From NCBI GenBank assembly GCA_024641965.1, contig JAHECC010000018.1, forward strand, positions 1 through 39,559: a stretch of 39,559 bases of DNA. Direction: 5' to 3'. Below are positions 2,849 to 34,664 of the stretch, piece after piece (within the stretch, counting starts at the first letter, position 1; each line of letters starts with the position of its first letter). Position numbers and translations under genes: made by a program. This DNA is from Rubrivivax sp. (GTDB lineage Bacteria > Pseudomonadota > Gammaproteobacteria > Burkholderiales > Burkholderiaceae_C). Below the pieces are notes generated by a model. That model made no database searches. It saw only the letters and a program-made list of their open reading frames with translations, and was not told the origin of the DNA.

Positions 2849-4183
2849 GTGGGTGCGATCACGGCCAATGAGATCGGCGGCTACTTCGACGCAGCGGCGG
2901 AGACGATGCCGCGCGAGCAGCTGGCCGAGCTGCAGCTGAACAGGCTGCGCGACACGCTGCGCAATGCCTACGACAACGTGCCGATGCAACGCACGCGGCT
3001 CGACGCCCTCGGCATCGCGCCCGACGACCTGTGCAGCATCGACGACCTGAAGCACCTGCCCTTCACCGTCAAGGCCGACCTGCGCGACCACTACCCCTTC
3101 GGCATGTTCGCGCGGCCCATCGACAAGCTGGCGCGCTTGCACGCCTCCTCAGGCACCACCGGCAAACCGACCGTCGTCGGCTACACCCAGGCCGACCTGG
3201 ACACCTGGGCTTTGCTGATGGCGCGCACGTTGATGTGCGCCGGTGCGCGCCCCGGCGACGTGGTGCACAACGCCTACGGCTACGGACTGTTCACCGGTGG
3301 GCTGGGCGCACACTACGGCGCCGAGCGGCTGGGTGCGGTGGTGGTGCCGATGTCGGGCGGCTCCACAGAACGCCAGGTGGCGCTGATCATGGATTTCCGC
3401 GCCCGCGTGCTGTGTGCCACGCCGTCCTATGCGCTGGCCATCGCCGAGGTGGCCGAGGCACAGGGCGTCGATCTACGCAAGAGCGCGCTGCAGGTCGGCC
3501 TGTTCGGCGCCGAACCCTGGAGCCAGGCGATGCGCGCCGAGATCGAGGCGCGCATCGGGCTGAAGGCCATCGACAACTACGGCCTGTCGGAAGTCATGGG
3601 CCCGGGCGTGGCTTGCGAATGCCCATGCCAGAACGGCCTGCACGGCTGGGAGGACCACTTCCTGTTCGAGCTGATCGACCCCGAAACCGGCGCAGTGCGC
3701 GGCCAGGACGACGACAGCGAAGCCGGCGAACTGGTCATCACCACGCTGAGCAAGCAGGCGTTGCCGATGATCCGCTACCGCACGCGCGACATCACGCGGC
3801 TGGAACGCGCGCGCTGCGACTGCGGGCGCACGCATGTGCGCATCCTGCGCATCACCGGGCGCAACGACGACATGCTGATCGTCCGCGGCGTCAACGTTTA
3901 TCCGTCGCAAATCGAAGCGGTGCTGGTCGGGCTGCCGCGGCTGGCGCCGCACTACCAGCTGGTGGTCAGGCGCGACGGCAAGCTCGACCGCGTCGAAGTC
4001 GAGGTCGAGGCGCAGCCCGCCGTCGCTGCCGACAACTATGCCGCGATCGCCAGAGAGGTCGCGCATCACATCAAGTCGCTGGTCGGCATCAGCACCGAGG
4101 TCATCGTCAAGGCGCCGGGGGAGATCCCGCGTTCGATGGGCAAGGCGGTTCGTGTGCGCGACCTGCGCGAGAAAGGAGCCTGA
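2849..4183 (+). CDS. paaK: Phenylacetate-CoA ligase
   Basis: A 444-residue adenylate-forming ligase of the PaaK type, which activates phenylacetate with ATP and CoA to phenylacetyl-CoA. Visible motifs are the P-loop-like SSGTTGKPTVVGY near residues 102-114, DNYGLSEVMGPGVACEC around residue 245, the hinge YRTRDIT and the C-terminal GRNDDMLIVRGVNVYPSQIE. Length is normal for the family. The start is GTG at 2849, with AAGGA 8-12 bases upstream. It sits 12 bases behind the PadD-like gene, so ligase and oxidase for phenylacetyl-CoA are probably co-expressed. In anaerobic clusters this gene is also called padJ. Confidence 0.9.
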   Translation: MGAITANEIGGYFDAAAETMPREQLAELQLNRLRDTLRNAYDNVPMQRTRLDALGIAPDDLCSIDDLKHLPFTVKADLRDHYPFGMFARPIDKLARLHASSGTTGKPTVVGYTQADLDTWALLMARTLMCAGARPGDVVHNAYGYGLFTGGLGAHYGAERLGAVVVPMSGGSTERQVALIMDFRARVLCATPSYALAIAEVAEAQGVDLRKSALQVGLFGAEPWSQAMRAEIEARIGLKAIDNYGLSEVMGPGVACECPCQNGLHGWEDHFLFELIDPETGAVRGQDDDSEAGELVITTLSKQALPMIRYRTRDITRLERARCDCGRTHVRILRITGRNDDMLIVRGVNVYPSQIEAVLVGLPRLAPHYQLVVRRDGKLDRVEVEVEAQPAVAADNYAAIAREVAHHIKSLVGISTEVIVKAPGEIPRSMGKAVRVRDLREKGA

Positions 4184-4187
4184 GACC

Positions 4188-4652
4188 ATGGCCAAGAGAC
4201 TGTTGAACCTGGAGGTCAACGGCCGCATGCGTGAACTGGCGGTCGCCGACCACGCCTTGTTGCTCGAAGTGCTGCGCGACGACCTGGCCCTGACCGGCAC
4301 CAAACAGGGTTGCGACGGTGGCGAATGCGGCGCCTGCACCGTGCTCGTCGAAGGCCAGCCGCGCCTGGCCTGCCTGTGCATCGCCGCAACCTGCGAGGGC
4401 CAGTCGATCGAAACGATCGAAGCCTTAGCCGAGGACGGCCGCATGAGCCGGTTGCAACAGGCCTTCCACGAAAAGCTGGGCACGCAGTGCGGCTTCTGCA
4501 CACCCGGCATGGTGATGGCCGCGGAGGCGCTGCTGCGCGCCAACCCGAAGCCGAGCCAAGCGCAGATCCGCGAGGCGCTGTCCGGCAACCTGTGCCGCTG
4601 CACCGGCTACGTGAAGATCATCGAGTCGGTACAAGCGGCGATGGAGGGCTGA
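4188..4652 (+). CDS. hcrC: 4-Hydroxybenzoyl-CoA reductase, small [2Fe-2S] subunit
   Basis: A 154-residue two-cluster ferredoxin of the xanthine-oxidase family. The plant-type cluster ligands are C42, C47, C50 and C62. The second cluster has C101 and C104 (CGFC) and C136 and C138 (CRC). It relays electrons between the molybdenum subunit and the FAD subunit. I chose the ATG at 4188 because AAAGGAG lies just upstream and because it gives the normal family N terminus; the same frame stays open further upstream inside paaK, but that extension is a shadow. Together with hcrA and hcrB downstream it forms the enzyme that removes the para-hydroxyl of 4-hydroxybenzoyl-CoA. Confidence 0.87.
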   Translation: MAKRLLNLEVNGRMRELAVADHALLLEVLRDDLALTGTKQGCDGGECGACTVLVEGQPRLACLCIAATCEGQSIETIEALAEDGRMSRLQQAFHEKLGTQCGFCTPGMVMAAEALLRANPKPSQAQIREALSGNLCRCTGYVKIIESVQAAMEG

Positions 4653-4656
4653 AATC

Positions 4657-7065
4657 ATGGACCAGCGCACCCATCCCGCAGCCGTGAAGGCAGAAGCACC
4701 AAGCCCGTCCACACCCGCGGCGCGCACCGTGCCCACCGGCCATGCCACCGGCCAGCGCACACCGCTGATCGACGGCATCGAGAAGGTCACCGGCCGCGCG
4801 CGCTACACCGCAGACCTGCCCTTCGGCGAAACGCTGGTCGGACGCATCCTGCGTTCGCCCATCGCGCACGGCGTGATCCACGCCATCGATACGGCGGCAG
4901 CGCGCGCATTGCCAGGCGTGCGCGCAGTCATCACCGGCGAGGATTTCAGCGCGCCCTACGGCGTGATCCCGATCGCGCAGAACGAATGGCCGCTGGCACG
5001 CGACAAGGTGCGCTACCGCGGCGAGCCGGTGGCCGCCGTGGCAGCGGTGGACGCGGCCAGCGCCGAAGCGGCGCTCAAAGCCATCGTGCTGCACATCGAG
5101 CCGCTGCCAGCCTACTTCGAAGCCGTCGACGCACGCGCCGAGCACGCGGTGGCGCTGCACGACAAGAAACCCGGCAACATCGAACGCGAGGTCGATCAGA
5201 CATTCGGCGATGTCGACGGCGGGTTCGCCGCCGCCGATCTGGTGCTGGAGCGCACGTTCGACTACGCCGAAGTGGCCCACGGCCAGATCGAGTTGAACTC
5301 GGCCATCGCCAGCTACGAGCCCGAGCGCGGCCGGCTGACCACGCATTCGGTGACGCAGGTGCCGTACTACCTGCACCTGACGCTGGCGCGCTGTCTGGGC
5401 ATGGACAGCTCGATGATCCGCGTGGTCAAACCCTTCGTCGGTGGCGGCTTCGGCCACCGCGTCGAACCGCTGAACTTCGAGATGATCACCGCCGCGCTGG
5501 CCCGTGCCGCCGGCGGCACGGTGCGCACCGAGTTGACGCGCGAGGAAGCCTTCCTCACGCACCGCGGCCGGCCGCGCACGCACATCCGGCTCAAGCTGGG
5601 GCTGAAGAAGCATGGTGAGATCACGGCCGTCGATGCCGAGGTGGTGCAGCGCGGCGGCGCCTACGGCGGCTACGGCCTCGTGACGATCCTCTATGCCGGC
5701 GCGTTGCTGCATGCGCTGTACCGCGTCGGCGCGGTGCGCTACCGGGGATTCCGTGTCTATGCCAACCTGCCGCCCTGCGGCGCGATGCGTGGCCACGGCG
5801 CGGTGGACGTGCGCCACGCCTTCGAGGCACTGCTCGACGAGATGGCGAATCAACTCGACCTGGACCCGTTCGCGCTGCGCCGCGCCAACCTGATCGGAGT
5901 GCCCTATCGCACGCTGAACGACCTGCAGGTCAATTCCTGCGGGCTGCCGCAGGCGCTGGACTGGGTCGAAGCCGCCAGCGGATGGAAGACGCGCCGCGCC
6001 AAGTTGCCGAAGGGCCACGGCCTCGGGCTGGCCTGCTCGCACTATGTGTCGGGCTCGGCCAAGCCGGTGCACTGGAGTGGCGAGCCGCATGCGGTGGTGA
6101 ATCTGAAGCTCGACTTCGACGGCGGCATCACCATCCTCACCGGCGCGTCGGACATCGGCCAGGGTTCGTCGACGCTGCTCACGCAGGTCGTCGCCGAGGT
6201 GCTGCTGCTGCCGCTGGAACGCATCCGCGTCGTCGCCACCGACAGCGCGCTGACGCCGAAGGACAACGGCTCGTACTCGTCGCGTGTGTCCTTCATGGTC
6301 GGCAATGCAGCCATCCGCGCGGCGCAAGCGCTGAAGCGCGTACTTGTCGAGGCCGCGGCGAAGAAGCTCGAAGTCACACCCGACGAAGTCGAATGGGCCG
6401 GCGAATGCTGCGGCGTCACCGGCACCGATCGCGAGTTGAGCTTCGCTCAGGTGGTCGATGCGGCGATGGTCGACACCGGCACATTGACGGTCAAGGGCGT
6501 GTGGTCGACACCGCCCGAGACGCAGGGCGGCAAGTTTCGCGGCGCCGCGGTCGGCTCGACCGCCGGCTTTTCCTATGCGGCGCAGGTGGTCGAGGTGATG
6601 GTCGACGAAGACACCGGCGTGGTGCGCGTTCAGAAGATCTGGGTCGCGCACGACTGCGGCTATGCCATCAACCCGCTGGCCGTCGAAGGCCAGGTGCAGG
6701 GCGCGGTGTGGATGGGCATGGGCCAGGCCTTGAGCGAGGAAACGCAGTATCACGAAGGGCTGCCGCTGCGGCCCAACTTCATCGACTACCGCATTCCGGG
6801 CATCGCCGAATCACCACCGATCGAGGTCGAGTTGATCGAAAGCCACGACCCGCTCGGCCCCTTCGGCGCCAAGGAGGCCAGCGAAGGCGCGCTGCACGGC
6901 TGCCCGCCCGCGTTGAGCAACGCCGTCTTCGATGCCATCGGGTTGCGCTTCACCGAACTGCCGATCACGCCCGACCGCGTGCTCGCCGCCATCCACACTC
7001 GACAGCGCGAACGACGGCTGCGTGCCAGCCGTGCCGGTGCGGGCGCAAGCACCGCGGAGGCATGA
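4657..7065 (+). CDS. hcrA: 4-Hydroxybenzoyl-CoA reductase, molybdenum-cofactor large subunit
   Basis: An 802-residue xanthine-oxidase-family large subunit that binds the molybdopterin cofactor and the thioester. Landmarks are the N-terminal a/b-hammerhead start (GKVTGRARYTAD-like, about residue 45), GGGFGHR around residue 264, GQGSSTLLTQVV around residue 503 and GPFGAKEASEG at residues 734-744, where E743 aligns with the catalytic glutamate. The first 30 or so residues are Ala/Pro/Thr-rich and not part of the fold. Its partners are unambiguous: hcrC ends 4 bases before it and hcrB overlaps its stop. Reductive dehydroxylation of 4-hydroxybenzoyl-CoA to benzoyl-CoA is inferred from the special FAD subunit next door. 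Confidence 0.85.
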   Translation: MDQRTHPAAVKAEAPSPSTPAARTVPTGHATGQRTPLIDGIEKVTGRARYTADLPFGETLVGRILRSPIAHGVIHAIDTAAARALPGVRAVITGEDFSAPYGVIPIAQNEWPLARDKVRYRGEPVAAVAAVDAASAEAALKAIVLHIEPLPAYFEAVDARAEHAVALHDKKPGNIEREVDQTFGDVDGGFAAADLVLERTFDYAEVAHGQIELNSAIASYEPERGRLTTHSVTQVPYYLHLTLARCLGMDSSMIRVVKPFVGGGFGHRVEPLNFEMITAALARAAGGTVRTELTREEAFLTHRGRPRTHIRLKLGLKKHGEITAVDAEVVQRGGAYGGYGLVTILYAGALLHALYRVGAVRYRGFRVYANLPPCGAMRGHGAVDVRHAFEALLDEMANQLDLDPFALRRANLIGVPYRTLNDLQVNSCGLPQALDWVEAASGWKTRRAKLPKGHGLGLACSHYVSGSAKPVHWSGEPHAVVNLKLDFDGGITILTGASDIGQGSSTLLTQVVAEVLLLPLERIRVVATDSALTPKDNGSYSSRVSFMVGNAAIRAAQALKRVLVEAAAKKLEVTPDEVEWAGECCGVTGTDRELSFAQVVDAAMVDTGTLTVKGVWSTPPETQGGKFRGAAVGSTAGFSYAAQVVEVMVDEDTGVVRVQKIWVAHDCGYAINPLAVEGQVQGAVWMGMGQALSEETQYHEGLPLRPNFIDYRIPGIAESPPIEVELIESHDPLGPFGAKEASEGALHGCPPALSNAVFDAIGLRFTELPITPDRVLAAIHTRQRERRLRASRAGAGASTAEA

Positions 7066-8066
7066 ACATGCAAGGCCTGCCCAATTTCGAACTGCAACGA
7101 CCGACGCATCTGGCCGAGGCGCTGGCGTTGCTCGCCGCCGAACCCCGCGCGCGGCTGCTCGCCGGCGGTACCGACCTGGTGGCGAACCTGCGCCGCGGCC
7201 TGGAGTACCCGCCACTGCTGATCGACCTGGGCGCGCTGCCGGGTTTCTCCGCCATCGATCACGTGGCCAACGGGCTGCGGCTGGGCGCCGGCGTGACCTT
7301 GGCGCAATTGACGCGCGACACAGCCATCGCGCACGACTACCCGGCTCTTGCCGAAGCCGCAGCGTCAGTGGCCGGCCCGGCGCACCGCAGTGTCGCGACG
7401 ATCGGCGGCAATCTGTGCCAGGACACACGCTGCGTGTTCTACAACCAGAGCGAATGGTGGCGCTCGGCCAACCGATACTGCCTGAAGCGCGGCGGCGACA
7501 CCTGCCATGTGGCACCGCAGGGCAAGCGCTGCCACGCCGCGTTCAGCGGAGATCTGGCACCGGCGCTGCTGGCCTTGGATGCCGAAGTGGAACTGGTCGA
7601 CGCACGCGGCACACGCCGCATGGCGCTGGCCGGGCTGTACCGCGACGATGGCGCGGCGCATCTGCAACTGGCGCCGGGCGAGTTGTTGCATTGCGTGCGC
7701 GTGCCATCCAAGGCGCCCCACAGCGTCAGCGCCTATCGCAAGGCGCGTGTGCGTGGCGCGATGGACTTTCCGCTGGCCGGCGTGGCTTGCAGTTTGACGC
7801 TGCGGGACGGCAGCCTCGCCAACCTGCGCGTGGCGCTGACGGGGACCAATACCAGACCCATCGTGCTCGGCGGCACCGAAGAGTTGCTCGGCAAGCCTGT
7901 GAACGACACGTCGATGCTCCGCCTCGGCAAGCTGGTGCAAAAGCAGGCCAGCCCAATGCGCAGCACTGCCATGTCGTCGAACTACCGGCGGCTGGTCGCG
8001 GCGGCGCTGGCACAGCGGCTGGTACGCGAACTGGCAGCGGTCGCCGCGTCTGCGCCTCAGCCTTAG
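7062..8066 (+). CDS. hcrB: 4-Hydroxybenzoyl-CoA reductase, FAD/[4Fe-4S] subunit
   Basis: A 334-residue CO-dehydrogenase/xanthine-dehydrogenase FAD-binding subunit, with LLAGGTDLV at residues 32-40 and TIGGNLCQDTRC at 113-124. An insertion carries cysteines C124, C140, C148 and C157, which match the extra [4Fe-4S] cluster known from Thauera aromatica HcrB. That insertion is the hallmark separating 4-hydroxybenzoyl-CoA reductase from ordinary xanthine-oxidase relatives, so it is the main reason for naming the whole trio. The ATG overlaps the hcrA stop (ATGA) and follows GCGGAGG. The extra cluster lets low-potential electrons enter the enzyme in the reductive direction. Confidence 0.88.
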   Translation: MNMQGLPNFELQRPTHLAEALALLAAEPRARLLAGGTDLVANLRRGLEYPPLLIDLGALPGFSAIDHVANGLRLGAGVTLAQLTRDTAIAHDYPALAEAAASVAGPAHRSVATIGGNLCQDTRCVFYNQSEWWRSANRYCLKRGGDTCHVAPQGKRCHAAFSGDLAPALLALDAEVELVDARGTRRMALAGLYRDDGAAHLQLAPGELLHCVRVPSKAPHSVSAYRKARVRGAMDFPLAGVACSLTLRDGSLANLRVALTGTNTRPIVLGGTEELLGKPVNDTSMLRLGKLVQKQASPMRSTAMSSNYRRLVAAALAQRLVRELAAVAASAPQP

Positions 8067-8074
8067 GAACGCGC

Positions 8075-10216
8075 ATGTTGTGCCCCGAATGCCAACGCCC
8101 CATGGATGAAGGCGAAGGCGCGCCGCACATCTGCGGCGCACATGCCCGGCTGCACTGGCGTTGCACCCAGTGTGCCGCGCTGCGCGCCGGCTTCGCATTT
8201 GCCTACGGCCGCTGCCCGAAATGCGGCGGCAAGCTCGAAGCCCTCGACACCTGGCGCGGCGACCAGGCGGCAGCGCTGGACGGCATCCGCATGGCTTTCG
8301 AAATCGAGCTCGGCGGGCGCGCTTTCTACCAGCGCGCCGCTGCCGACAGCACCGATGCGGTCATGCGTGCGCTGTTCGGACGCTTCGCGCTGATGGAAGG
8401 CGAGCACATGGAAATCCTGGCGCGCCGCTATCACCTCGACATCCCCGATCCGACGCCGGATTTCCGCATTGAACTGGCGGCCGTGTTCGCCGACGTGCCC
8501 AGCCGGCCTCGCGATCCGGACAACCTGTTTCGCATCGCCATCGCGCTGGAGCAGCGTGCCGCGGCGTTCTTCGCCGAGCGCGCCGGCTTCGCCACCGAAG
8601 GCTCGGCCGAGCAGCGCCTGTTTAGCGAACTGGCCGAGGAAGAAGACGAACACGCGCGAACGCTGCAACTCGAGTTCGAGCGCTGGAGCGCCGAGCGACC
8701 GGGCCGCTTCAGTCAGGACGCGTCGGGCAGTACCGAACGCGCTGAACACGCGGCAGGTGCAGCCACAGCGTCGATCAACGCCGCCGCGTTGCTGTTGGCC
8801 GGGCTCGATGCGCACGCGCCGGCGCTGCGCTGCGGCGAGCTCACGCTGACGCGAGGCGAATTGCGTGAGCAGGTAGCCCGCTGCGCGGGCCTGTGGCAGG
8901 CCCGCGGCATCGGCCCCGGCGAGCGCATAGCGATCCGGCTCAACGACAGCATCGACTGGGTGATCGCCTTCCTCGGCGCGATCTGGGCCGGCGCCGTGGC
9001 CGTGGCCGTGAATCCGCGCATTCTCGCGCCGGAGTGGCGGTACGTGCTCGACGAAGCCGGCTTTAGCCTGATCCTGGCCACGTCGGCCGACGAGACGCCG
9101 TCGCCCTGGCATGAGCGTGTACTGCTGCTGCCCGACTGGCAACAACAGCTGGCCCGCGCGCTGCCGATCGAAGCACGCGCGATGCCACCCGACGCGCCGG
9201 CCCTGTGGTGCCACTCATCAGGCACCTCGGGCAAGCCCAAGGCGGTGGTGCATGGCCATCGCTTCGCACAGCAGATCGAAACCGTGTCCCGCGACGGCCT
9301 GGGCCTGACATCGAGCGACCGGCTCTATGCCAGCTCCAAGCTCTTCTTTGCCTATCCGCAGACCAACGCCTTGTTCGCCGCGCTGAAGCTGGGCGCCTGC
9401 CTGATCCTCGACGAGCAATGGCCCACCGCGGCCGGTGTGGCCGGCCTCGTGGCCGCACAGCGGCCCGCGGTGTTGTTCAGCGTGCCCTCGCTGTACCGCA
9501 GCCTGCTGCACGAGGGCCTGGCCCCGGGCATCGCGGCCAGCGGCGTGCGCCTGTGCGTGTCGGCCGGCGAGACGCTGCCGGCCAGTCTGCGCGAGGCCTG
9601 GCAGCGTCAGACCGGCCTGGCCATCGTCAGCGGCTATGGGGCGTCGGAAACCATGGTGCTGGTGATGCTCGATTTCGGTGACGGGCGAGGTTTCCGGCCC
9701 TCGCCGGGTGTGCAGGTCGAGGCCGTCGGCACAAGCTCGGGTGAGCTGCCGACCCGCTTGCTGATCAGGACACCGACGCTGGCGCTGGGCTACCTGGACC
9801 GGCCACAGGCGCAGGCCGAAAGCTTCCGCAGCGGCGCGTTCTGCGCGGCCGACCTGTTCGTTGCCAACGACGCCGGCGGTTGGCGCTTTGCCGGGCGCGA
9901 AGACTCGCTGGTGAAGATCGGGGGCCGCTGGGTCAACCTGGTCGAGCTGGAAGAACAGCTCGGCGCCAACGCGCCTGGCGTGATCGAGGTCGCGGCGGTG
10001 TGCGTGGCCGATGCCGACGGCATCGATGCCGTGGCCGTGTTCTACGTCGCCAGCGACCGTGAGGCGGCCGCTGCCGCACTGCGCGAACGCTGTCGCGCCC
10101 TGCCCCACCACCAGCGTCCGCGCTGGCTGCACCCGGTGGATGCCCTGCCGCGCACCGCCACCGGCAAACTGGTGCGGCGCCGCCTGCAGGAACTGCAGCG
10201 GGGGTTGCAGCCATGA
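8075..10216 (+). CDS. Zinc-ribbon/rubrerythrin-like domain fused to benzoate-CoA-ligase-type domain
   Basis: A 713-residue fusion. Residues 1-52 hold zinc-ribbon-like cysteine pairs (C3/C6, C30/C33, C47/C50, plus C20). Residues about 65-205 form a ferritin-like four-helix domain with a full rubrerythrin diiron set: E78, E108xxH111, E159, E190xxH193. A linker of about 25 residues leads to an AMP-forming acyl-CoA ligase (about 233-713) with HSSGTSGKPKAVVH at 380-393, a YGASET motif, GRWVNLVELEEQL and the C-terminal PRTATGKLVRR lysine motif. The ligase half resembles benzoate/hydroxybenzoate-CoA ligases and seems full length. No stop or frameshift interrupts the joint. The ATG has an AGGAA site and starts 8 bases after hcrB. 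The ligase probably activates benzoate or a hydroxybenzoate; the role of the diiron part is unknown, with peroxide or oxygen protection the obvious guess. Confidence 0.85.
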   Translation: MLCPECQRPMDEGEGAPHICGAHARLHWRCTQCAALRAGFAFAYGRCPKCGGKLEALDTWRGDQAAALDGIRMAFEIELGGRAFYQRAAADSTDAVMRALFGRFALMEGEHMEILARRYHLDIPDPTPDFRIELAAVFADVPSRPRDPDNLFRIAIALEQRAAAFFAERAGFATEGSAEQRLFSELAEEEDEHARTLQLEFERWSAERPGRFSQDASGSTERAEHAAGAATASINAAALLLAGLDAHAPALRCGELTLTRGELREQVARCAGLWQARGIGPGERIAIRLNDSIDWVIAFLGAIWAGAVAVAVNPRILAPEWRYVLDEAGFSLILATSADETPSPWHERVLLLPDWQQQLARALPIEARAMPPDAPALWCHSSGTSGKPKAVVHGHRFAQQIETVSRDGLGLTSSDRLYASSKLFFAYPQTNALFAALKLGACLILDEQWPTAAGVAGLVAAQRPAVLFSVPSLYRSLLHEGLAPGIAASGVRLCVSAGETLPASLREAWQRQTGLAIVSGYGASETMVLVMLDFGDGRGFRPSPGVQVEAVGTSSGELPTRLLIRTPTLALGYLDRPQAQAESFRSGAFCAADLFVANDAGGWRFAGREDSLVKIGGRWVNLVELEEQLGANAPGVIEVAAVCVADADGIDAVAVFYVASDREAAAAALRERCRALPHHQRPRWLHPVDALPRTATGKLVRRRLQELQRGLQP

Positions 10217-11007
10217 CCGCGTTGCTGTCGACCCGACGCTGTGGCCGCGTGCTCGTGGCCACGCTGTCACGCGCGCCGGTGAATGCGCTCGACGATGCCT
10301 TGATCGCCGCGCTGCACCGGCTGCTCGACCAGGCCATCGCCGACGATCGGGTGGCGCTGCTGCACCTGCGCAGCGACCAGCGCTCGTTCAGCGCCGGGGC
10401 CGACCTTGCGCTGATCGAGGCCTGTTTCGCCACGCCCGGCGGGCCCGATGCCATGACCGAGGTGGTTCGCGACATGCAGCGCCTGTACCAGCGGCTCGAG
10501 GCCGCGCCGCTGGCCACGCTGGCCGAGATCGAGACCACCGCGCTGGGCGGTGGCCTGGAACTGGCGCTGGCCTGCGACCTGCGCGTGGCCGCGCTCGACG
10601 CCAGGCTCGGCCTGCCCGAATCGCGCCTGGGCCTGCTGCCCGGCGCCGGCGGCACACAGCGCCTGACGCGGCTGTGCGGGCCCGGTGTGGCCAAACGAAT
10701 GATCCTCGGCGCCGAGATCATCGATGGTGCGGCGGCAGAACGTTTGGGCATCGTGCAATGGGCGCTGCCGCGCGAGCGCCTGGCCGAGGCGGCGCGTGAC
10801 ATCGCAGCGCGCTACGCGGCCATGCCCAAGGCCGCGCTGGCGGCCAACAAGCGCTGCATCGCCGCCGCCACCGACCCGGAGCGCGACGGTTATGCCGACG
10901 AGATCACCGAGACGCGCACGCTCTACGACCACCCCGAAACGCGCCGGCGCGTGTCGGACTTCCTGGCCAAGCGAGCAGCCACGCCGCAGCCACCAACCCG
11001 GCAATGA
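10213..11007 (+). CDS. Enoyl-CoA hydratase/isomerase (crotonase family)
   Basis: A 264-residue crotonase-fold protein. The oxyanion-hole segments FSAGADL and ALGGGLELA are present. Both catalytic glutamates of classical enoyl-CoA hydratase are conserved: one in GGGLELA and one in LPESRLGLLPGAGGTQRL. It should therefore hydrate an enoyl-CoA. Its ATG overlaps the ligase stop (ATGA). With the dehydrogenase that follows it could form a beta-oxidation pair acting on ring-opened dicarboxylyl-CoA or on an alicyclic CoA ester; the exact substrate cannot be read from the sequence. Confidence 0.85.
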   Translation: MTALLSTRRCGRVLVATLSRAPVNALDDALIAALHRLLDQAIADDRVALLHLRSDQRSFSAGADLALIEACFATPGGPDAMTEVVRDMQRLYQRLEAAPLATLAEIETTALGGGLELALACDLRVAALDARLGLPESRLGLLPGAGGTQRLTRLCGPGVAKRMILGAEIIDGAAAERLGIVQWALPRERLAEAARDIAARYAAMPKAALAANKRCIAAATDPERDGYADEITETRTLYDHPETRRRVSDFLAKRAATPQPPTRQ

Positions 11008-11021
11008 ATGAGGAACCCCAG

Positions 11022-11768
11022 ATGGACCTGCAACACAAGATCACGATAGTCACCGGCGCCGCCTCGGGCATCGGCCGCGCCTGCGCCGGCGCGCTGGCCG
11101 CGGCCGGTGCGCAAGTCATCGTCGCCGACATCGATGCCGCCAATGGCACGGCCGTCGCCGAGGCCATCCGCGAGCAGGGTGGACTGGCCGAGTTCATGCC
11201 GGTGGACATGACCGACACCGCCGCCATCGAGGCCTTCGCCGCCGAAGTGCAGACCAAGCACGGACCGGTCGACGTACTCGTCAATGCCGCCGGCTGGGGC
11301 CGCACCGCGCCCTTCGTCGAAGGCTCCGCCGAGTTCTGGAACAAGCTGGTGGCGCTGAACCTGGTCGGGCCGATGGCACTGGCCAAGGCCTTGCTGCCGG
11401 CGATGATGCAGCGCGGCGGCGGCAAGATCGTAAACATCGCCAGCGACGCCGGGCGCGTTGGCAGCCTGGGCGAAACGGTCTATTCGGCAGCCAAGGGCGG
11501 CCTGATCGCCTTCACCAAATCATTGGCGCGCGAGACCGCGCGCTACGGCATCAACGTCAATTGCGTCTGCCCCGGCCCCACCGACACGCCGCTGATGGCC
11601 GCGGTACCCGACAAGGTGAAGGACGCATTGATCAAGGCGATTCCGTTTCGCCGCCTGGGCAAGCCCGAGGAAGTGGCCGACACGGTAGCCTTCTTCGCCG
11701 GCGACCGCTCCAGCTACATCACCGGCCAGGTGCTCAGCGTCAGCGGCGGTCTGACGATGGCCGGCTGA
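11022..11768 (+). CDS. Short-chain dehydrogenase/reductase, hydroxyacyl-CoA dehydrogenase-like
   Basis: A 248-residue classical SDR. Visible are the nucleotide site TGAASGIG near the N terminus, the NAAG motif, the catalytic serine in [15 protein letters not shown] and the PGPTDTPL loop. The D in VIVADID after the second strand suggests NAD rather than NADP. I place the start at ATG 11022 because GAGGAA ends 6 bases upstream; an in-frame ATG at 11004 that overlaps the previous stop is less likely. It resembles BadH-type 2-hydroxycyclohexanecarboxyl-CoA dehydrogenases and 3-hydroxyacyl-CoA dehydrogenases. It lies between two crotonases, which supports a hydroxyacyl-CoA substrate. Confidence 0.82.
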
Positions 11769-11800: not shown

Positions 11801-12619
11801 ATGAAACGACTGCAACTCGCCGGCTACCAGGCCCGGCATTTCGGCTACAGCGCCGAGGGCAAGGTGGCGACGATCCGGCTGAACCGGCCCGATCGCAAGA
11901 ACCCGCTGACCTTCGACTCCTACGGCGAACTTCGCGACCTGTTTCGCGACATGGTCTACGCCACCGACATCAAGGCGATTGTCTTCACCGGCGAGGGCGG
12001 CAACTTCTGTTCGGGCGGCGACGTGCACGAAATCATCGGCCCGCTGGTAAAGATGGACATGCCCGAACTGCTCGAGTTCACGCGCATGACCGGCGATCTG
12101 GTCAAGGCGATGCGCGGCTGCCCGCAGCCGATCGTCGCCGCCATCGACGGTGTGTGCACCGGCGCCGGCGCGATGATCGCCTGCGCGTCGGATATGCGCG
12201 TCGCCACAGCACGCAGCAAGCTGGCCTTCCTGTTCGTGCGCGTCGGCCTGGCCGGCGCCGACATGGGCGCGTGCACGCTGTTGCCGCGGCTGATCGGCCT
12301 GTCGCGCGCCGCCGATTGGCTATACACCGGACGCGTGGTTTCCGGCGACGAGGCCGAGCGCGTCGGCTTCCACAACCGGTTGGTCGAACCGGACCAGCTG
12401 CTCGACGAAGCCGGCGCGCTGGCAACGAGCCTGGCCGAGGGTCCGAACTTCGGCCATGCAATGACCAAGACCATGCTCTGGCAGGAATGGAATGCAGGCC
12501 TGGGTGAATGCATCGAGGCCGAAGCGCAGGCCCAGGCCATCTGCATGCAGACCAAGGACTTCGAGCGCGCCTACCACGCCTTCGCGGCCAAGCAAAAACC
12601 AGTCTTCGAGGGCAATTGA
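11801..12619 (+). CDS. Crotonase-family protein lacking the usual hydratase glutamates
   Basis: A 272-residue crotonase-fold protein with a clear oxyanion hole ([10 protein letters not shown] and CTGAGAMIA). Where classical hydratases have Glu in GGGCEL and PEILLG, this protein has Met (TGAGAMIA) and a hydrophobic residue (LFVRVGLAG). Simple syn-hydration is therefore doubtful, and an isomerase, hydrolase or ring-modifying reaction is more likely. The signature [16 protein letters not shown] and the ending KQKPVFEGN recall, from memory only, crotonases next to benzoate-type ligases in aerobic 2-aminobenzoyl-CoA clusters. The start is ATG 11801 behind AGGAAGG. DUF2249 follows after 2 bases. 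Confidence 0.8.
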
Positions 12620-12953: not shown

Positions 12954-14249
12954 ATGGCCCTGGCCACCAACTTCCTCGGCGGCGTGCGCAGCCGCCTGCT
13001 GCCGGTGCAGATTCCGTTCCGCTTCTTTGGCGCGGCGGTGGTCTTTCACGTGCTCGCCTGGCTGGCCCTGCTGGCTGGAGCAGTTGAGTTTCCCCGTTTC
13101 GCCGGCGGCCTGGGCTGGCCTCTGGCCGCGCTGCACCTGCTGACTCTGGGTGTGCTGGTGATGACGGCCATCGGCGCGAGCCTGCAACTGCTGCCGGTGG
13201 CCACACGCCAGCCGCTGCGCGCACCGCAATGGGTCGCCGCGCTGTGGTGGCTGTACGCTCCCGGCGTTGCCGCGGTGGCGCTGGGCATGGGGCTCGGCCT
13301 GGTGCATCTGCTGGCAGTCGGCGCCAGCGTCGTGGTGGCGGCGCTGCTGCTCTATGCCGGCTTGCTTGGCGCCAACCTGCGTGGCGCGCGCGGCATGCCG
13401 GTGGTCGTGGCGCACGGCTGGGCCGCACTGGTTTCGCTGCTGGTGGTGCTGGCCAGCGCCGCAGCCCTGGCGGGAAGCTACGTCGGCATACCGCTGCTCG
13501 ACCGTACCCAAGCAGTGGCACTGCACCTGCCCTTCACGATCTACGGCTTCATGGGTCTGCTGTCGCTCGGGCTTTCATACATCCTGGTGCCGATGTTCGC
13601 GCTGTCGCCGGCGCCGGACCCGAAGCAGGCGCTGGTCTCGCTGGTGCTGGCCGTGGCGGCATTGGTGCTGGCCGCGGCCGCCGCGGCTGGCTTGGCGCCG
13701 GTGACGCTGCGATTGGCCGCCGCGGGCCTGGGCCTGGCGGCGGTACTGCTGCACCTGCGGCTGATGCGGGTGGCGCTGCGCGCCGGCATGCGCCGCGAGC
13801 TCGGACTGTCGTTCCGGCTGATACACATCGGCTGGCTGCTGCTGCTGGCTGGGTTGGTCGGCACCGCCATCCTCGCGCTGCAACCCGCCTATGCAGGTGC
13901 GCCGGCGCTGTTCATACTGCTGCTCGTCGGCGGCTGGTTGCTCAGCTTCCTGTTCGGCATGCTGCAGCGCATCCTGCCCTTCCTGGCGTCGATGCACACC
14001 ACCGGCGCCGGCAGGCGTGGGCACACGCCATCGTCGCTGACCGCACAGGGGCCGCTGAAGATTCACTTTGTCTGCCACCTCGCGGCGCAGGCGACGCTGG
14101 TGCTGTCGGTGCTGGCCGACAGCCCGGCGCTGGCCCGGCTCGGCGCGCTGCTCGGCGTGCTCGGTGCGGCCGCCTTCGGCCTGTTCTTCCACACGCTGTG
14201 CGTGCGCATGCGAGACGGCGCGCCACAGGGGGCCCGGGTCCGGACTTGA
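12954..14249 (+). CDS. Polytopic membrane protein, NnrS/heme-copper-oxidase-subunit-I-like (tentative)
   Basis: A 431-residue protein with about 12 predicted membrane helices and little else. Several histidines lie at helix ends or inside helices (VFHVLAW, ALHLLTLG, VALHLPFT, RLIHIGW), reminiscent of NnrS-type and cytochrome-oxidase-subunit-I-like proteins that occur beside DUF2249 and hemerythrin genes. A haem or metal role linked to NO or O2 is therefore plausible but unproven. It is the last gene of the first + strand run; the hemerythrin gene follows after a short promoter region. The Shine-Dalgarno site is weak. Confidence 0.65.
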   Translation: MALATNFLGGVRSRLLPVQIPFRFFGAAVVFHVLAWLALLAGAVEFPRFAGGLGWPLAALHLLTLGVLVMTAIGASLQLLPVATRQPLRAPQWVAALWWLYAPGVAAVALGMGLGLVHLLAVGASVVVAALLLYAGLLGANLRGARGMPVVVAHGWAALVSLLVVLASAAALAGSYVGIPLLDRTQAVALHLPFTIYGFMGLLSLGLSYILVPMFALSPAPDPKQALVSLVLAVAALVLAAAAAAGLAPVTLRLAAAGLGLAAVLLHLRLMRVALRAGMRRELGLSFRLIHIGWLLLLAGLVGTAILALQPAYAGAPALFILLLVGGWLLSFLFGMLQRILPFLASMHTTGAGRRGHTPSSLTAQGPLKIHFVCHLAAQATLVLSVLADSPALARLGALLGVLGAAAFGLFFHTLCVRMRDGAPQGARVRT

Positions 14250-14315: not shown

Positions 14316-14801
14316 ATGAATACCGCATCCCAAGTCAGCCAGGCGCTGGACGCCGAGCACCGAGCCAACCTCGAGTTGCTGGGGCGTGTCGAGCATGCTC
14401 TGGCACGCTCGCCGCGCAGCAGCGGCAATGATTTCGACAAGCTGGCGGGGGCCTTCGCGCGCCAGATCGAGCAGGACATCGCGCGCCACTTCGATTTCGA
14501 GGAGCGTGAGCTGTTCACGCGCATGACCGAGGCCGGCGAGGGCGACATCGCCGAATTGCTGCGCGAGGAACACGACGCTATCCGCGAGGTTGCCACCGAG
14601 ATCCTGCCGCTGGTACGCGCCGCCGAGTCGGGTTCGCTGGACGCGAGCGGCTTCGAGGCACTGAAGCGCGGCGCGCTGGAAATGGTCGAGCGGCAGGTGG
14701 CGCATATCCAGAAGGAAACGATGGCGCTGCTGCCGCTGCTCGACGATCTGCTCGACGAGGCGCAGGACCGCGAACTGGCCTTCGCCTACGCCAGCACCTG
14801 A
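14316..14801 (+). CDS. Hemerythrin-like HHE-domain protein
   Basis: A 161-residue four-helix protein with hemerythrin-type metal ligands: AEHRAN near the N terminus, HFDFEERELF, EEHDAI and HIQKET. Such domains bind O2, NO or iron with a diiron centre; here it probably senses or buffers an oxidant in the cytoplasm. It is the first gene of the second + strand unit. A strong palindrome lies immediately upstream, and the acetyltransferase follows after 25 bases. The start ATG at 14316 has only a weak ribosome site. Confidence 0.82.
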   Translation: MNTASQVSQALDAEHRANLELLGRVEHALARSPRSSGNDFDKLAGAFARQIEQDIARHFDFEERELFTRMTEAGEGDIAELLREEHDAIREVATEILPLVRAAESGSLDASGFEALKRGALEMVERQVAHIQKETMALLPLLDDLLDEAQDRELAFAYAST

Positions 14802-33298: not shown

Positions 33299-34134
33299 AC
33301 GATCTCGCCACTCCCGTCGCGGTCATGACCGCGGCCGACTACAAGTCGGGCTACAAGCCGATCTGGTGCCCGGGCTGCGGTGATTTCACCGTGCTCAGCG
33401 CCATCACCAAGGCCCTGGCCATGCTGCAGCTGCCGCCGCACGAAGTGGCGGTGGTGTCGGGCATCGGCTGCTCGTCGCGCATTCCGGCCTACACCACCTG
33501 CTACGGTTTCCACGGCGTGCACGGCCGCGCACTCGCCGCCGCCACCGGCCTGAAAGTGGCGCGCCCAGAGCTGACGGTGCTGGTCACCGGCGGTGACGGC
33601 GACGGTTATTCGATCGGCGGCAACCACTTCATGCACGCCTGCCGGCGCAATGTCGACATGACCTACATCGTCATGGACAACCATGTCTACGGCATGACCA
33701 AGGGCCAGGCCTCGCCGACCACCGAACCGGACTGGGACAACAAGCTTTCGCCCGGCGGCACCGGCATACGATCCTTCCACCCGTTGGTGATCGCACTGGC
33801 GGCGGGCGCCAATTTCGTCGCCCGCGCCTTTGCCGGCGACCCGAACGGCACCGCGGCAATGATCGCGCGGGCGATCCAGCATCCGGGCTTCTCGTTCATC
33901 GAGGTCATGAGCCCGTGCGTGACCTTCAGGCCCGAACAGCGTGAGTGGAAAACGCACGTGCATCCGTCGACAGTGGAGGCCACCGACGACCCGGCGCGCG
34001 CCGCCCGGCGCGTGATGCGCGACGACGGCTTGAATATCGGTGTGCTCTATGCCGGCAGCCGCGCGCCCTTCCCACTGGCGCGGCGCGAGACACACGCAAC
34101 GATGGCCCAACTTGAGGAGGACTTCGCCCTATGA
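33295..34134 (+). CDS. korB: 2-Oxoacid:ferredoxin oxidoreductase, beta (TPP) subunit
   Basis: A 279-residue TPP-binding subunit. The cluster cysteines occur in IWCPGCGDFTVLSA and GIGCSSRIP, and the TPP/Mg motif is GGDGDGYSIGGNH running to MDNHVYGMTKGQ. There is no extra ferredoxin domain. Its ATG overlaps the korA stop (ATGA), and its own stop overlaps the rubrerythrin gene. With KorA it supplies reduced ferredoxin; 2-oxoglutarate as substrate is inferred from the benzoyl-CoA context. Confidence 0.88.
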   Translation: MNDLATPVAVMTAADYKSGYKPIWCPGCGDFTVLSAITKALAMLQLPPHEVAVVSGIGCSSRIPAYTTCYGFHGVHGRALAAATGLKVARPELTVLVTGGDGDGYSIGGNHFMHACRRNVDMTYIVMDNHVYGMTKGQASPTTEPDWDNKLSPGGTGIRSFHPLVIALAAGANFVARAFAGDPNGTAAMIARAIQHPGFSFIEVMSPCVTFRPEQREWKTHVHPSTVEATDDPARAARRVMRDDGLNIGVLYAGSRAPFPLARRETHATMAQLEEDFAL

Positions 34135-34664
34135 ACGCGAGCAAACCCGATGCAAGCAACGTGACCGCTTCGATCGAGGACTTCATGGTGCAGGCTGTGG
34201 CCATGGAGCTGGAGGCCGCCGAGCGCTACAACGAACTGGCCGATGCGATGGAGGTGCACAACAACCGCGAGGTGGCCGAGCTGTTTCGCAAGATGGCCGT
34301 CATCGAAGGCAAGCATGCGACGCAGGTCATGGCCGAGATGGGCTGGACCGAGGTGCCGAAACCGACGACTGCCGTGCCCTTCGAAGGCTTCGAATCCGCC
34401 GAGATGGTGCCCATCGACGAATTGCACTACCTGATGCAGCCCTGGCACGCGCTGCAACTGGCACTGGGTGCCGAGCAGCGTGCCGAGCGCTTCTTCGCAC
34501 ACCTGGCGTCGATTGCCGACAACGACACGGTGCGCAAGGCGGCGCTGGATCTGCAGCAGGAAGAACAGGAACACGTCGAACTGATCGAGGCCTGGCTGAA
34601 GAAGATTCCCAAGCCCGAGGCCGACTGGGCCGACGACCCCGACCCACCACGGCACCACAGCTGA
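34131..34664 (+). CDS. Rubrerythrin-like ferritin-fold protein
   Basis: A 177-residue four-helix diiron protein with ligands E28, E59xxH62, E115 and E145xxH148 and no rubredoxin domain. Between the two helix pairs lies a segment (about 80-105, VPFEGFESAEMVP) that may be a helix cap. The ligand spacing matches that in the ligase fusion at 8075-10216. Translation is coupled to korB by an ATGA overlap, so it is made together with the oxygen-sensitive ferredoxin reductase. A peroxidase or O2-scavenging role is inferred; its electron donor is unknown. Confidence 0.85.
   Translation: MNASKPDASNVTASIEDFMVQAVAMELEAAERYNELADAMEVHNNREVAELFRKMAVIEGKHATQVMAEMGWTEVPKPTTAVPFEGFESAEMVPIDELHYLMQPWHALQLALGAEQRAERFFAHLASIADNDTVRKAALDLQQEEQEHVELIEAWLKKIPKPEADWADDPDPPRHHS

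Follow-up and report, generated by a model that had tools for sequence, protein, structure and literature searches.

Why should an enzyme that activates aromatic acids in an anaerobic pathway carry a rubrerythrin-type iron domain at its N-terminus? The question is raised by a protein encoded in a 39,559-nucleotide stretch of Rubrivivax sp. DNA (NCBI GenBank assembly GCA_024641965.1, contig JAHECC010000018.1, positions 1 to 39,559), referred to here as the window. In this protein an N-terminal Cys4 plus diiron module of ~210 residues, which we term FER, is joined through a variable linker to an adenylate-forming ligase half, LIG (Table 1). Comparison with its homologues indicates that the fusion is a new union of known domains with a traceable partner, and that the architecture is real and conserved, with both halves complete and under constraint. 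We propose, giving the reading an even chance, that the protein is a working hydroxybenzoate-type CoA ligase carrying a putative O2- or peroxide-reducing guard module that belongs to the low-potential electron supply.

The junction between the two halves recurs in other genomes. In a GTDB scan with a nine-row alignment (A2), from which the best 80 of 103 relatives were kept, the fusion was present in 55 of the 80 loci, representing 49 genomes by accession; a contig scan with the single protein as query found nothing. Both seed patterns of the alignment scan sit within FER, so ligase-only loci are under-sampled. Within the genus, 8 of 50 genomes including the source genome harbor the fusion, with two copies in G013, G049 and G005. 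Contig ends truncate the second of the G005 copies and the one in G021; G001 probably also has the fusion, split in the same way. Among the matches listed for the family, 10 of 299 genomes including the source genome have it, and these ten loci (L116–L125, several of which are also GTDB loci) retain every residue that was checked. The genus, family and GTDB sets share members. Because the same junction is found in all three, an assembly or frameshift artefact is ruled out, and the original prediction of one uninterrupted frame with a three-part architecture, to be sought in other genomes, is confirmed. Burkholderiales-order names, among them Rubrivivax, Ramlibacter, Ideonella, Piscinibacter, Rhizobacter, Aquabacterium and Rhodoferax, stand on 49 of the 55 fused records; the remaining six are named uncultured bacterium, Pseudomonadota (two), Gammaproteobacteria, Proteobacteria and Anaerolineales. 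On the trees the Anaerolineales record (L058) all but coincides with Aquabacterium L059 and is therefore probably a binning error. Three isolates have the fusion, all of them Ramlibacter (R. monticola, R. alkalitolerans and R. lithotrophicus, the last being L064). A whole-protein search of plasmids at 1e-60 gave no match, and no paper describing the fusion or its module was found among open-licence PMC papers.

The partner is traced by FER itself. The N-terminal 210 residues match the C-terminal module of PRK12775-type Nfn proteins, an assignment that is new here and rests on profile comparison. PRK12775 (NF009413), a 1006-position family whose name is putative, is the second-best NCBIfam match and aligns residues 3–210 with positions 799–1004 (E 2e-77); at 260.9 bits the fusion falls below the whole-family cut-off of 1895 bits, which covers NfnA, NfnB and the module. 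Among the 25 FER-only GTDB loci, which come from Telmatospirillum, Anaeromyxobacter, Thiocystis, Rhodopseudomonas, Siculibacillus and others, 20 have FER in one frame with an NfnB-like part, four have it adjacent to one and the last (L106) lies at a contig edge. The four inspected (L090, L092, L094 and L115) encode an NfnA-NfnB-FER protein of ~1000 residues; that of L115 (Rhodopseudomonas, 994 residues) scores 2133.9 bits on PRK12775. An NfnB-like part in the FER frame was found in none of the 55 fused loci. In L137 (G076) the order is hcrCAB, NfnAB and FER, where FER has its own stop and the contig ends 105 bases further; the 784-residue protein upstream of this FER scores 1462.9 bits over PRK12775 positions 1–780 and is thus the family minus its end. 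The source genome itself has a second FER without a ligase, on contig C340 behind an NfnB-like part (model positions 293–791, 913 bits). By eye, this FER precedes a pyruvate:ferredoxin-oxidoreductase-like gene. The original claim that no characterised enzyme has this layout is therefore upheld for the whole protein; the module, in contrast, is already known in fusion with an Nfn-like protein.

One such protein has a physiological role assigned. AadN (RPA0678) is a fused Nfn homologue encoded beside hba genes in Rhodopseudomonas palustris, and its deletion impairs growth on benzoate and 4-hydroxybenzoate and leaves growth on cyclohexane carboxylate unaffected, the need being an anaerobic one (PMC9973337). 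The main text of that article contains no occurrence of ferritin or rubrerythrin. Among Rhodopseudomonas genomes, 6 of 16 have one PRK12775 protein above the cut-off, each matching positions 1–1006 and hence including the module. In G355 this gene follows hcr/hba-like genes (located by tblastn), a CRP-type regulator, an alcohol dehydrogenase, a hydrolase and boxC/boxB-like genes (the last five by eye). If hbaR is RPA0673, as we take it to be, this gene order leads to RPA0678, so AadN very probably bears FER, on the basis of gene order and locus numbering. By eye, the NfnAB-FER gene of G355 (L164–L165) lies directly behind the boxC/boxB-like genes, which belong to aerobic benzoyl-CoA breakdown. 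The last ~210 residues of PRK12775 are the same module, and AadN belongs to a similar setting of hba genes, 4-hydroxybenzoate and benzoate; unlike the fusion, PRK12775 proteins have NfnA and NfnB ahead of the module and no ligase.

The iron module was called rubrerythrin-type from the outset, and this description fits in part. A ferritin-like match expected within residues 60–205 was found: the Pfam Rubrerythrin family (PF02915) matches residues 72–198 with 25.3 bits against a gathering cut-off of 22.8 (27.9 bits in the genome search). The model and the alignment together place the diiron ferritin-like pattern E, ExxH, E, ExxH on a helical bundle; in a model of FER predicted alone, the helices span residues 65–91, 95–119, 132–139, 148–172 and 178–206. 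FER was predicted separately because a Foldseek search with the whole-protein model gave, among the best 50 rows, adenylate-forming enzymes and no others. With FER alone, Foldseek gave nothing at E 0.001, the top match being 2fzf (3.6e-3). The ligands Glu108, His111, Glu159, Glu190 and His193 are kept in all 55 fusions, and Glu78 in all 54 that cover it, the remaining fusion being cut by its contig end there; all six are also present in the 25 FER-only loci. These counts cover all 55 fusions, and the 45-row alignment A3 omits contig-cut, over-long and most N-terminally shortened ones. Classical rubrerythrins have an additional Glu ligand three residues past the third-helix Glu. At this position Ala162 is found in all 55 fusions and all 25 FER-only loci, and the extra Glu is thus absent. 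The nearest solved structures to the diiron part are COG1633-type proteins (2fzf, 2oh3), which share its fold and its E, ExxH, E, ExxH ligands; FER differs from the Rubrerythrin/COG1633 proteins in its N-terminal Cys part, the extra CxxC...C and Ala162 in place of Glu. The Cys part also stands at the N-terminus in reverse rubrerythrins.

The Cys-rich part contains a CxxC-x13-CPxC motif. Cys30 and Cys33 are present in 51 of the 55 fusions; three loci are cut by contig ends there and L073 is without that part. By alignment, the first CxxC and Cys20 are lost in five fusions (L060, L061, L073, L080 and L086), none of which has AadN upstream; L067, L069 and L081 are contig-cut in this count. The association of Cys loss with the absence of an upstream AadN is suggestive only.

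LIG carries the hallmarks of the adenylate-forming ligase superfamily, namely both Pfam domains above their cut-offs (AMP-binding, 178.8 bits; AMP-binding_C, 29.4 bits) and the C-terminal lysine. The catalytic Lys698 is present in all 52 fusions that extend far enough; in L041 and L083 the contig ends first, and L084 terminates early. With the diiron ligands invariant wherever they are covered and the ligase motifs and Lys698 conserved, the expectation that both halves are intact is borne out. The top PDB matches of LIG are benzoate-CoA ligases (E 6e-57), and the best NCBIfam and PDB matches, the benzoate-CoA ligase family (TIGR02262; PDB 4rlf, 2v7b) and HbdA, run over the full ligase half. 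The scores are 254.4 bits over positions 31–507 of 508 for TIGR02262, below its cut-off of 375.25, and 285.8 bits for the 3-hydroxybenzoate-CoA ligase model HbdA (NF053567; 322.7 and 317.4 in two relatives), far below its cut-off of 1000. Identity to 4rlf is ~30%. The source genome has a separate canonical benzoate-CoA ligase (C118, 808 bits). Given hcrCAB directly upstream, LIG is most likely an aromatic, hydroxybenzoate-type CoA ligase. In L084 (positions 2910–4790), a second-copy fusion in a Ramlibacter metagenome-assembled genome (MAG), the ligase halts inside the contig, which may reflect decay of this copy or an error in the sequence.

The surroundings agree with the anaerobic aromatic setting that had been proposed. 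Immediately upstream, hcrA and hcrB score above the cut-offs of their models, and the window also has bcrDABC, dch, oah and had, each above its cut-off, as well as a 2-oxoacid:ferredoxin-oxidoreductase-type gene and nrdD/nrdG2, so the organism is equipped for anaerobic aromatic breakdown. Across the fused loci, whose flanks were taken up to 6 kb and many of which are cut, hcr genes occur in the flank of 30 of 55, and hcr genes or an enoyl-CoA hydratase (ECH)/short-chain dehydrogenase (SDR) module in 42. An AadN-like gene lies upstream in 23 of the 55, within 250 bases in 22 and ~1.07 kb away in L044. Counting the nearest upstream neighbor within 250 bases, 22 loci have the AadN-like gene, 17 hcrB, one an HcrC-like gene (L058), 10 another gene or none, and five a contig edge.

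How might the two halves work together? 4-Hydroxybenzoyl-CoA and benzoyl-CoA reductases (Hcr and Bcr) require low-potential electrons, and rubrerythrins in anaerobes reduce peroxide. In the mechanism that we favor, LIG would make the aroyl-CoA thioester with ATP, and FER would take electrons from the low-potential supply of the pathway, either an AadN-type flavoprotein where present or else ferredoxin or another donor. Stray O2 or H2O2 would then be reduced at the FER diiron site, and its removal would shield the oxygen-labile Hcr and Bcr reductases. The fusion may have arisen when a FER that followed an AadN-like gene became continuous with the ligase gene after it. A role with O2 or peroxide, part of the original prediction, gains indirect support from the ligand set, the fold and the link to a flavin electron-supply enzyme. 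A parallel is offered by the predicted Rub-Bfu system, in which a flavin enzyme of the electron-bifurcating type is paired with an adjacent rubrerythrin and H2O2 removal is proposed (PMC9304861); it differs from the fusion in its other bifurcating core (BfuBC), its separate genes and the lack of a ligase.

The two halves probably sit side by side without allosteric coupling. The opposite was suggested at first, in that oxidised FER centers would turn the ligase off so that no aromatic acid is activated under oxygen. The presence of both halves on one polypeptide and the strong constraint on each would suit such a redox gate. The linker, however, has a mean pairwise identity of 0.26 against 0.60–0.68 in the flanking domains, and the predicted structure has a pLDDT (model confidence score) below 50 at residues 213–230. 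Moreover, hcrB is followed by ligase-only relatives in other species (G139, G009, G043, G012, G017, G191 and G327), and FER also occurs on an unrelated enzyme type, PRK12775, and so is no ligase-specific sensor. The idea that oxygen shuts off ligation has no direct support, and we regard the gate as unlikely. A diiron oxygenase acting on the aroyl-CoA of its own ligase, as BoxB acts on benzoyl-CoA, is very improbable: it would suit the diiron site and the boxC/boxB-like genes ahead of the PRK12775 gene in G355, seen by eye, but the domain has the small COG1633/ferritin-like fold, the module is shared with an Nfn-like protein, from which acyl-CoA chemistry is not expected, and the adjoining enzymes belong to an anaerobic pathway.

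FER could instead serve as a physical dock or relay between the ligase, the electron-supply enzyme and the Hcr reductase, its metals passing electrons and the aroyl-CoA being formed at the site of its reduction. FER shares a frame with an NfnB-like part in 20 of the 25 FER-only loci and with the ligase in 55 of the 80 loci, and in L073 (positions 4104–7061 of JANYAN010000198.1, a single MAG contig) HcrB, the diiron domain and the ligase form one frame of 985 residues; the confinement of the Cys losses to fusions lacking an upstream AadN also fits. But L073 has no Cys-rich part at all, although a relay of electrons should require one, several fused genomes have no AadN-like match, and in other species hcrB is followed by ligase-only forms. 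We therefore rate docking as rather unlikely. A further reading, which we advance tentatively and hold with well under even confidence, is that FER is a swappable redox arm shared by the Nfn-like supply enzyme and the ligase; its transfer between the two within one operon would physically couple substrate entry, low-potential electron delivery and oxygen defence, with L073 as the extreme case.

The history of the fusion was examined on two trees. On the ligase tree (69 rows, Shimodaira–Hasegawa-like approximate likelihood-ratio support, SH-aLRT, only), ligase-only L128 and L129 are basal, on long branches flagged by the program, and the other six ligase-only rows fall among the fused rows at two places (L026, and the clade L126/L127/L028/L029/L035), which on this tree means at least two losses of FER. 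The FER tree has 80 rows (L106 and rows starting past residue 30 were omitted; the alignment A4 omits rows starting past residue 5, L058, L078, L095 and L106). Its fused rows need two changes; the row that departs is L096 (R. monticola), in which FER is unfused and follows NfnB, and the other 27 AadN-type rows lie on one side with a support of 92. The trees are consistent with a single main fusion event and subsequent losses; the direction of that event is taken from distribution, not rooting: AadN-type FERs are more widespread (Myxococcota and several proteobacterial groups), which points from AadN-type to ligase. A neutral fusion, in which neighbors were joined by loss of a stop and work as they would apart, with FER serving a purpose other than oxygen such as iron handling, would account for the unfused FER in the hcr operon of L137 and for the repeated loss of FER. 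However, 55 loci retain the fusion with invariant ligands, and a neutral one would be expected to break more often; we consider this explanation improbable.

FER also varies with its neighbors. The mean distance of its diiron part to AadN-type FERs is 0.600 with an AadN-like gene upstream (n = 23), 0.642 with hcrB upstream (n = 18, p 0.044) and 0.682 otherwise (n = 9); AadN upstream versus not gives a Mann-Whitney p of 0.003. This comparison omits six edge loci, and its third group includes the probably mis-binned L058 and L084, whose ligase stops early. The ligase distances show no overall difference (p 0.52), and AadN versus hcrB gives p 0.076 in the opposite direction. When loci were paired with the nearest AadN-bearing relative, with partners re-used, FER was farther in 26 of 27 (in one of these the value is zero at three decimals), and the same held for the ligase in 19 of 27. 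We read this pattern as partner-dependent constraint on FER.

Several observations weigh against the guard reading. Faster FER change without AadN could equally reflect relaxed function, and the pairs share partners and are not independent. The midpoint root of the FER tree falls among the fused rows, so that the AadN-to-ligase direction is not given by the tree. The Cys-rich module may be rubredoxin-like or a zinc ribbon, its weak profile matches being of both kinds (rubrerythrin 1b71, E 0.052; zinc ribbons HypA, E 0.0099, and DP2, E 0.0016). No AadN-like match at E<=1e-150 is present in fused genomes G023, G021, G318, G246 and G149, and G066 has only a shorter GltD-like match (614.8 bits); since such AadN-free genomes keep all covered ligands, AadN is no obligatory donor. 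The idea that AadN and KorAB exclude each other comes from PMC9973337; replacement of AadN by KorA failed as an explanation, because 25 of 26 genomes have a KorA-like protein whether or not they have AadN. The flanks of eight fused loci, among them L084, contain no hcr, AadN or ECH/SDR genes, so a role outside the aromatic pathway is possible; five of the eight are second copies within their genome. Finally, hcr genes lie near the PRK12775 gene in two of the five Rhodopseudomonas genomes viewed (G355 and G357); the fetched stretches of G345 (L149/L150), G356 (L167) and G358 (L168) are without any query gene.

The features of the fusion and its neighbors are collected in Table 1, and further genes lie close by. 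A small rubrerythrin-like gene, RbrM (L016 13026–13529, on the contig of L061; Pfam 35.3 bits), is found downstream of the fusion in 18 of 55 loci and is often flanked by SDR and ECH2; a second diiron protein is thus frequently encoded in the operon. Within the window, a second rubrerythrin-domain protein (34131–34664, Pfam Rubrerythrin 51.8 bits) lies near the 2-oxoacid:ferredoxin-oxidoreductase-type gene, and a hemerythrin-domain protein (14316–14801, 56.8 bits) near the cluster is a possible further O2 or NO binder. A polytopic membrane protein (12954–14249), NnrS-like by eye only and unmatched in Pfam and NCBIfam within the limits applied, has a homologue near the fusion in 19 of 55 loci. 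An Rfam scan of the window at gathering score gave no match. In L086 (5077–8088) an upstream membrane-protein-like frame (TRIC/YadS-like by eye) is open into the fusion frame, as a further fusion or a missing stop. In R. monticola (L056) and R. alkalitolerans (L060) the fusion lies away from hcr, with response regulators, cytochromes and a NirK-like gene around it (by eye), a hint that it may also serve in other contexts than the hydroxybenzoate operon. An hcr operon is present in R. monticola too, and there hcrB is followed directly by a ligase match (L152).

Table 1 Parts of the fusion protein and neighboring genes in the window.
Feature	Position	Strand	Remarks
Whole fusion frame	8075..10216	+	Single open frame, 713 residues; ATG 8 bases past hcrB stop
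Cys-rich module, residues 1–56	8075..8242	+	Cys3, Cys6, Cys20, Cys30, Cys33, Cys47, Cys50
Diiron helical-bundle domain, residues 63–206	8261..8692	+	Ligands Glu78, Glu108, His111, Glu159, Glu190, His193
Variable linker, residues 207–234	8693..8776	+	Low identity, low pLDDT
Adenylate-forming aromatic CoA ligase, residues 235–713	8777..10213	+	SSGTSGKPK loop, Glu525, Asp593, Lys614, Lys698 conserved
hcrC-like, 4-hydroxybenzoyl-CoA reductase gamma	4188..4652	+	TIGR03193 254.5 bits, just under cut-off 257.8
hcrA, 4-hydroxybenzoyl-CoA reductase alpha	4657..7065	+	TIGR03194 1190.2 bits, cut-off 994.55
hcrB, 4-hydroxybenzoyl-CoA reductase beta	7068..8066	+	TIGR03195 435.5 bits, cut-off 404.55
ECH1, enoyl-CoA hydratase family	10213..11007	+	Best model under cut-off; ATG overlaps fusion stop; in 34/55 loci
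SDR, nearest BadH	11004..11768	+	TIGR03206 279.3 bits, under cut-off 431.2; in 34/55 loci
ECH2, enoyl-CoA hydratase family (PRK08258)	11801..12619	+	473.6 bits, cut-off 330; in 25/55 loci

These findings bear on the protection of very low-potential, oxygen-labile ring reductases in facultative anaerobes. To our knowledge there is no settled account of how these organisms shield their aromatic ring reductases from oxygen. The diiron module described here has links to both electron supply and substrate activation, often in one operon, and its natural variants, fused, unfused, lost or AadN-free, provide ready comparisons. The analysis also points to a domain that is very probably present on AadN, goes unnamed in the published study of that protein, and could be removed in the genetically tractable R. 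palustris.

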